44,475 nt of DNA. Source: a bacterium. GTDB taxonomy: Bacteria > Planctomycetota > Planctomycetia > Pirellulales > UBA1268. The stretch lies in NCBI GenBank assembly GCA_029978085.1, contig JAPOJV010000011.1, forward strand, positions 1 to 44,475. The letters are read 5' to 3'. The notes beneath the pieces were generated by a model that saw only the letters and a list, made by a program, of their open reading frames with translations, had not been told where the DNA came from and did not search any database. Position numbers and translations under genes: made by a program. Below are positions 6,576 through 7,720 of this stretch, one piece after another (within the stretch, counting starts at the first letter, position 1; each line of letters starts with the position of its first letter).

Positions 6576-6649
<74 letters not shown>

Positions 6650-6924
6650 TTGGGTTTCTTCTTCTCTCTCGGTGATTCCGCGTTTCTCGCGGGTTTCGTG
6701 AAGCTCGGCCGGCGTCGGATGGCCGCTGACGGCTCGTGAGTGTGCCGCTGAATGCGGCGATTTCGGGAAACGCACCTGATTCCGATTGCGTACGCCCACG
6801 GAAAACCAACTCATTTGTACCTTTGCCGCCGGCTCAAATGCTTGGCGGCGATTGTTTCCGCTGCCGGGCGGAACGAAGATGATGCCGGTGGCTGTGATGA
6901 ACCTGCCGATGATCCGGAAAGGGA

Positions 6925-7410
6925 ATGCCGACTCTTTACGTTGAAACATCGATCGTCAGTTACCTTCGGGGCCGACCAAGCGGGCAGGTCGTTGCTGCGG
7001 CTCGGCAACTGTTGACGCACAAGTGGTGGACCGCAGAAAGGTCAAACTACGAACTTGTCACCTCGCAGTACGTGCTCGACGAAGCGGCTGATGGTGATTC
7101 TGCCCTCGCTCAGCGCCGCCTCGAGGCGCTGACGGGCATTCCTATCCTCCCTGTCGAGGAGGCAATCTTGGACATCGCCGAAGCAATCCTGCGAAAAGCA
7201 ATTCTGCCACGATCGGCGAGCGTCGATGCCCTCCATATCGCGATGGCTGCCCACCATCACGTAGACTACCTTCTGACTTGGAATTGCACGCATATCGCGA
7301 ATGCACGAATCCTCCCCAAGGTTTTTGACGTACTGGATCATGCGGGGCTCGCCAGGCCGATCATCTGCACGCCCGAGGAGTTGTTGAGCGATGACACAGA
7401 AATCTCCTGA
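6925..7410 (+). CDS. PIN-domain ribonuclease (VapC-like toxin candidate)
   Basis: A 161-residue PIN domain. The N-terminal strand carries MPTLYVETSIVSYLRGRPS, with Glu in place of the usual Asp, as in the ETS subgroup of PIN proteins. The second acid is in SQYVLDEAADGD, and the later acids are in SASVDALHIAMAAHH and the TWNCTHIANA region. These would coordinate Mg2+ for single-strand RNA cleavage. The gene overlaps the start of the small gene at 7391 by 20 nt, which suggests translational coupling and a toxin-first type II toxin-antitoxin order. Its base composition is lower in GC than surrounding genes. The cellular target is unknown. Confidence 0.82.
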   Translation: MPTLYVETSIVSYLRGRPSGQVVAAARQLLTHKWWTAERSNYELVTSQYVLDEAADGDSALAQRRLEALTGIPILPVEEAILDIAEAILRKAILPRSASVDALHIAMAAHHHVDYLLTWNCTHIANARILPKVFDVLDHAGLARPIICTPEELLSDDTEIS

Positions 7411-7579
7411 TCGCGACACGACGATTGAAGAGATTCACGCGACTCGGCGACGGATCGCAGAAAAGTTTGGCCATGATCTCGCGGCCATTGTCGAGGATGC
7501 CAAAAAGCGGCAAGCCACCTCCGGCCATGAAATCTGGCGACCGAAGCCCAAGACTTCGGCGGCGGCACCGAATTCCTGA
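7391..7579 (+). CDS. Small partner protein of the PIN gene (antitoxin candidate)
   Basis: A 62-residue charged, helical protein: TTIEEIHATRRRIAEKFGHDLAAIVEDAKKRQ forms one or two amphipathic helices, followed by a proline-rich tail. The start at 7391 lies inside the PIN gene, so the pair is translated together. The E-I-x-x-x-R-x-x-I-x-x-x-x-x-x-D pattern resembles small proteins I recall next to PIN genes in planctomycetes and cyanobacteria, but no DNA-binding motif is clear. The antitoxin role is inferred from position, size and overlap only. Confidence 0.7.
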   Translation: MTQKSPDRDTTIEEIHATRRRIAEKFGHDLAAIVEDAKKRQATSGHEIWRPKPKTSAAAPNS

Positions 7580-7703
7580 CGTCATGACGCCCGACGGTTG
7601 CGGCCGCCGCCCTTCCGTTCGCTTGCCTTCGTGGCGACGAATTGTGTGCCGGGCAATTTTTCATTTTGCGGTTTTCCCGGGGAAACACTCGACCTGTTTG
7701 CTT

Positions 7704-7720
7704 CCTGTCGAGGGTATTGG
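7704..7720 (+). repeat. attR-like direct repeat
   Basis: CCTGTCGAGGGTATTGG, an exact copy of 6637-6653. The next base on each side differs between the copies. High-GC sequence resumes immediately downstream. Confidence 0.75.

Follow-up and report, generated by a model that had tools for sequence, protein, structure and literature searches.

Within the window (the whole 44,475-nt stretch of planctomycete DNA analysed here), ARAGORN identifies a tRNA-Arg(CCG) gene on the forward strand at positions 6576..6649, and locus synteny in relatives marks it as an integration target. Its 3′ end is included in a 17-nt sequence, CCTGTCGAGGGTATTGG (6637..6653, forward strand; the left direct repeat, or attL core), which recurs exactly on the same strand at 7704..7720 (the right direct repeat, or attR core), with 1,067 nt separating the two copies. 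Thirteen of the repeated nucleotides are the tRNA 3′ end and four lie past it; extended leftwards, the copies are identical at 22 of 25 nt. A repeat search of the next 10 kb found no exact match of the tRNA end longer than 17 nt, as compared with a maximum of 12 nt in 500 dinucleotide-preserving shuffles, and the 13-nt core occurs twice in the entire 3.3-Mb assembly. The intervening DNA (6654-7703) has a GC content of 58.1%, against 70.4% for the window, placing it among the lowest 0.2% of 1,050-bp windows, and its codon usage deviates from that of neighbouring genes (GC3 of 0.64 for the PIN-domain gene described below versus 0.76-0.89 in the flanking genes). Both the repeat and the drop in GC had been pointed out in an earlier note made from the sequence alone; the two observations hold, and the GC and codon-bias check which that note proposed bears out an atypical composition. 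The 1.07-kb segment has in common with tRNA-targeted islands its position at a tRNA 3′ end, the direct repeat and the deviating composition, and of recombinases it contains only C-terminal scars, one from a tyrosine integrase and one from a serine recombinase.

The segment encodes an intact 161-aa PIN-domain protein (6925..7410, forward strand; PF01850, E 1e-7) and, overlapping its gene, a 62-aa partner ORF that is a putative antitoxin (7391..7579, forward strand). In comparisons with four homologues each, dN/dS amounted to 0.07-0.14 for the PIN ORF and 0.13-0.18 for the partner, which argues for selection on the pair in the homologue family; this evidence concerns the family across relatives, as distinct from the window copy. 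In the window, the toxin-antitoxin-like pair may still be selected. While the PIN domain fits a VapBC-like module, the 62-aa ORF had no match in Pfam, NCBIfam, PADLOC or PHROGs that would make it a recognised antitoxin, and a search of the PDB returned no meaningful match for the PIN protein. We infer the pair to be a toxin-antitoxin module from the PIN domain and the gene overlap. It resembles a VapC-type PIN toxin with a small partner in the juxtaposition of a PIN domain and an overlapping small ORF and in its purifying selection, and differs from it in that the partner is located downstream and matches no known antitoxin family.

Together with the 3′ end of a recombinase gene, the pair forms a cassette (6826..7630, forward strand) that by blastn is 76-85% identical in DNA to loci at other places in the genomes of relatives. 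A search for tRNAs adjacent to the PIN homologues was mostly negative, in line with the cassette travelling with a serine recombinase: three of the closest homologues directly adjoin such a gene, two of the three with a tRNA-end-like sequence upstream of the recombinase. In G008, G014 and G015 (our designations for genomes), the PIN pair directly adjoins a convergent large serine recombinase gene, which is complete in G008 and G014 and internally deleted in G015.

At the left end, ~40 C-terminal codons of a tyrosine integrase gene, HETREKRGITEREEETQYPRQGSNL, survive on the reverse strand of 6626..6748 and run into the tRNA. The scar was detected as a protein match (6626-6745 against residues 381-420 of the G036 integrase; 53% identity, E 2e-4), was recovered again with a second query and is seen in the alignment to G010, in which the last 46 residues of the G036 integrase also found a match (E 2e-11) and the tail reads HETRENSLDVQKPLENQYPRQGSNL. 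Intact integrases of the same family overlap tRNA-Arg(CCG) in G036 and G102, where the C-terminus extends into the tRNA gene, and tRNA-Arg(CCT) in G007, G028, G029 and G030. From the integrase tail, the window passes into the motif TTCGGGAAACGCACCT (6762..6796, forward strand; the first internal junction, from alignments to G010 and G030:C203), as at the G010 deletion. In the intact left half of an island on contig G030:C203, this motif is found ~2.2 kb deeper inside the island, ahead of an AbiEi-like gene, and the alignment of G010 to that left half falls into two blocks, G010 lacking the 2,156 bp between them. The common junction indicates that the window species and G010 either share a deletion or underwent a nearly identical one. 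A breakpoint near integrase codon 378 was seen in G000, G010 and G098; since the surrounding regions differ in detail, we claim nothing from this recurrence.

The right end preserves a second recombinase gene in a similar manner. On the reverse strand, 7582..7630 comprises the last 15 codons and the stop of a large serine recombinase, KASERKGGGRNRRAS, identified by protein match to G010 (73% identity to residues 655-669 of its recombinase, which contains PF00239, PF07508 and PF13408) and by DNA alignment to G015. At 7630..7631, alignments to relatives place a deletion junction of ~2.0 kb relative to G010, with shared GCCTTC(G). Beyond it, 7631..7703 (reverse strand) corresponds to the right end of the parent element and includes YPRQEANRSSVSPGKPQNEKLPGT, the remnant of a short ORF, hereafter the tail ORF, that precedes the serine recombinase in relatives and is conserved in seven loci; this stretch is 81% identical in DNA to G010 upstream of the recombinase start, through the tRNA-end repeat. 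The earlier note had regarded the PIN gene and its small partner as the sole content of the segment and had found no integrase. Indeed, both ORFs were confirmed and no integrase is intact, but the recombinase scars at both ends, the tail of a tyrosine integrase on the left and that of a serine recombinase on the right, had been overlooked.

Several other genomes encode proteins closely related to the G010 recombinase (79-90% identity). The window's own genome holds decayed pieces only, at G000:C245, where the decayed gene (L214 6827-7477), of the same family, is followed at the 3′ end by a VapBC-like pair. Which toxin-antitoxin-like or other small genes lie immediately beyond the serine recombinase stop differs between genomes (L139 9526-9585, L155 2964-3023, L215, L216 and L217), and in two cases the last 20 recombinase codons are duplicated around them. 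It looks, from sequence, as if cassettes were exchanged at this 3′ end.

Comparison with about 25 relatives revealed a conserved upstream gene order (a HEAT-repeat gene, the lipoate ligase gene LplA, a small ORF, GT2 and tRNA-Arg(CCG)), followed by DNA that varies between genomes directly after the tRNA. Several relatives carry tRNA-end repeats and integrases at the locus, and others an uninterrupted trailer. The islands of G015 (6.6 kb) and G018 (12 kb) encode tyrosine integrases and repeat 46-48 nt of the tRNA end. G010 and L228 have 4-kb islands with a large serine recombinase, HicBA and comparable repeats: that of G010 is ~17 nt, with the serine recombinase intact, and that of L228 is 22 nt and matches its own tRNA allele. 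G036 likewise has an island. In G008 and G028, the tRNA is followed by a hairpin-like trailer and no island, and sequences matching these uninterrupted trailers flank the islands of G010 and G029 on the right; the right flank of the window matched no known empty-site trailer. Variable islands in some genomes as opposed to bare trailers in others argue that this tRNA is a used integration site. The locus comparison suggested in the earlier note thus turned up both sites without an island and longer islands with an integrase, in support of its proposal of a tRNA-targeted insertion; neither observation it had named as speaking against that proposal, a PIN pair kept here without the repeat or a repeat absent around every homologue, was made.

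Several further observations were made at this tRNA. The islands in L095 and L096 encode a second, different tyrosine integrase (590-604-aa ORF) and a helicase-like gene and have 46-48-nt repeats, and the G018 island has an additional large methyltransferase-like gene. L254 (2480-2860) contains the right end of a serine recombinase island, and then the membrane-protein gene that lies downstream of tRNA-Arg(CCG) in G011 and G006, i.e. a further island at the tRNA. Beyond the right repeat of G010 (L094 7068-8516) follow a further PIN gene, part of a serine recombinase and an MscS gene of which only the two ends remain, a sequence arrangement that suggests a second decayed island in tandem. Just past the tRNA, L109, L112 and L120 have clusters of a short palindromic repeat, CACAGGTTnnCAACCTGTG.

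From these data, the parent element can be pieced together as a composite of overlapping contigs; it was never complete on one contig, G030:C203 and G030:C109 were not joined by contig-end overlap, and the close relatives are all draft assemblies, many of them metagenome-derived. The intact left half on G030:C203 consists of the integrase, an Xis-like HTH_17 gene, a small ORF, an AbiEi-like gene and HicBA. Counted from the tRNA, the order in the parent would be tyrosine integrase, Xis-like gene, small ORF, AbiEi-like gene, HicBA, a small gene, an exchangeable toxin-antitoxin-like cassette, the large serine recombinase and the attachment end. The repeat, the scars, the junctions and this architecture in relatives can be read directly in the DNA, and they make it very probable that an integrative island once entered the 3′ end of tRNA-Arg(CCG) through site-specific recombination and has since decayed to the 1.07-kb segment. 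In the proposed course of the deletions, one would have removed the integrase through to the Xis-like gene, leaving ~40 integrase codons and ending almost where the deletion in the related species G010 does; the segment lacks the AbiEi-HicBA block; and a deletion of ~2.0 kb would have taken the serine recombinase except for its last 15 codons. What would remain is attL, the PIN pair, which is under purifying selection across relatives, and attR. A decayed island had been one of two options in the earlier note, and the two recombinase-gene scars and the junctions common to relatives favour it, a point against it being the shortness of the integrase scar and the modest E-value of its match.

The other option, a minimal mobile element carrying just the PIN module, would be a non-autonomous attL-PIN pair-attR unit moved in trans by the tyrosine integrase of another island. 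Both ends are kept, including ~120 bp beside the core that could hold arm-type sites; G010 retains a very similar left end without the integrase, and related integrases are common among relatives. However, searches with the left and the right end gave no second two-ended copy, the segment contains gene scars and not clean ends, and the best match to the cognate integrase family in the window's own genome (a draft of 263 contigs) has 43% identity, so that we consider such a unit highly improbable. That the PIN pair reached its place beside the tRNA in some unrelated way, with the repeat arising by chance, has next to no likelihood: although most PIN homologues lie away from tRNAs, the shuffle statistics, the recombinase scars at both ends and the parent islands at the locus all contradict it.

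A further question is which enzyme made the insertion. Serine integrases usually have their att site adjoining the integrase gene. Consistent with this custom, G008, G015, G030 and L226 carry the element end and a tRNA-like core upstream of the recombinase in places with no recognised tRNA gene, as would be expected if the large serine recombinase had acted on a tRNA-end-like sequence directly upstream of its own gene. We nevertheless regard this as unlikely, given that the upstream end differs at other copies of the serine recombinase and that repeats of 17-22 nt from tRNA 3′ ends are typical for tyrosine integrases. Since every intact left end has a tyrosine integrase directly against the tRNA, with an Xis-like gene beside it where this was read (G030, G007), this integrase is most likely to have inserted the island. 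IMG/VR contained no relative of the enzyme. With no close cognate in its own draft genome, the relic is probably immobile there, or movable only via a related integrase in trans or by accretion.

The parent raises a separate possibility. In relatives, the tail ORF begins at the att core and comprises 40-53 codons, RQGSNKRGLTRGKPKKG...KGGA[R/K], upstream of the serine recombinase. It is open in all seven loci, with length differences in frame only and a pN/pS of 0.42, and in 7/7 loci its stop overlaps the recombinase start (TGATG). At the att core, the tail ORF and the integrase tail (YPRQGSN) are in the same frame, and at one locus, G098:C7 (L246 8009-8349), the predicted fusion is found: integrase tail, core, basic tail ORF and serine recombinase start, i.e. 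an attP-like junction within a chromosome contig. The in-frame core and the TGATG overlap suggest that a circular form would join both recombinases in one operon that integration cuts. Tentatively, then, the parent would be a two-recombinase island with the att core inside the tyrosine integrase frame, whose circle would read integrase, core and basic tail, with a stop overlapping the start of the serine recombinase, and whose integration would swap the tail and halve the operon. We hold this to be possible, if rather doubtful; alternatively, the serine recombinase may be carried along as a passenger, and decay may have produced the fusion by chance. G004:C484, a candidate for a second integrase-tail fusion, was rejected as its downstream gene is chromosomal, and counts only as another right end at the locus.

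Among known systems, the segment is best labelled a CIME-like relic and is thus of a known kind. Cis-mobilizable elements (CIMEs) are described in PMC5704250 (citing Pavlovic et al. 2004) as decayed ICEs or IMEs whose integration genes are lost while attL and attR persist at the target gene's 3′ end. Here, too, the recombination module is deleted, at junctions common to G010 and the G030:C203 parent, and both att sites are retained at the 3′ end of the tRNA gene. In contrast to CIMEs, the parent has a serine recombinase besides the tyrosine integrase; no relaxase or transfer genes were recognised in the parent pieces, the complete parent never having been seen. With tRNA-targeted islands that encode tyrosine integrases, the segment also shares low GC and toxin-antitoxin cargo, the difference being that of the integrase it has a ~40-codon scar only. 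Tycheposons are tRNA-targeted cargo elements associated with tyrosine recombinases. By description, the segment, likewise a tRNA-targeted cargo element, would resemble the tycheposons named in PMC10872708, and differs in that no recombinase is left. Archaeal suicidal integrases have their att site within the integrase gene, and it is the integrase itself that is split (PMC8371274). The parent would resemble them in having the att core inside the integrase frame, and would differ in that only the C-terminal tail is exchanged and not the catalytic domain, and in that the serine recombinase start overlaps the end of that tail.

With both scars legible, the segment illustrates how a tRNA island shrinks to a toxin-antitoxin-like pair between att sites. 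The parent is of greater interest than the relic, since by our hypothesis its integrase frame continues past the core and takes in a conserved tail whose stop overlaps the beginning of the serine recombinase gene. No description of a planctomycete two-recombinase island family was found in the literature searched. In this family, the genes of the tyrosine integrase and the serine recombinase seem to adjoin one another across the att site, and an exchangeable toxin-antitoxin cassette lies at the 3′ end of the serine recombinase gene. The family makes it testable whether integration can silence a second recombinase by splitting its operon.
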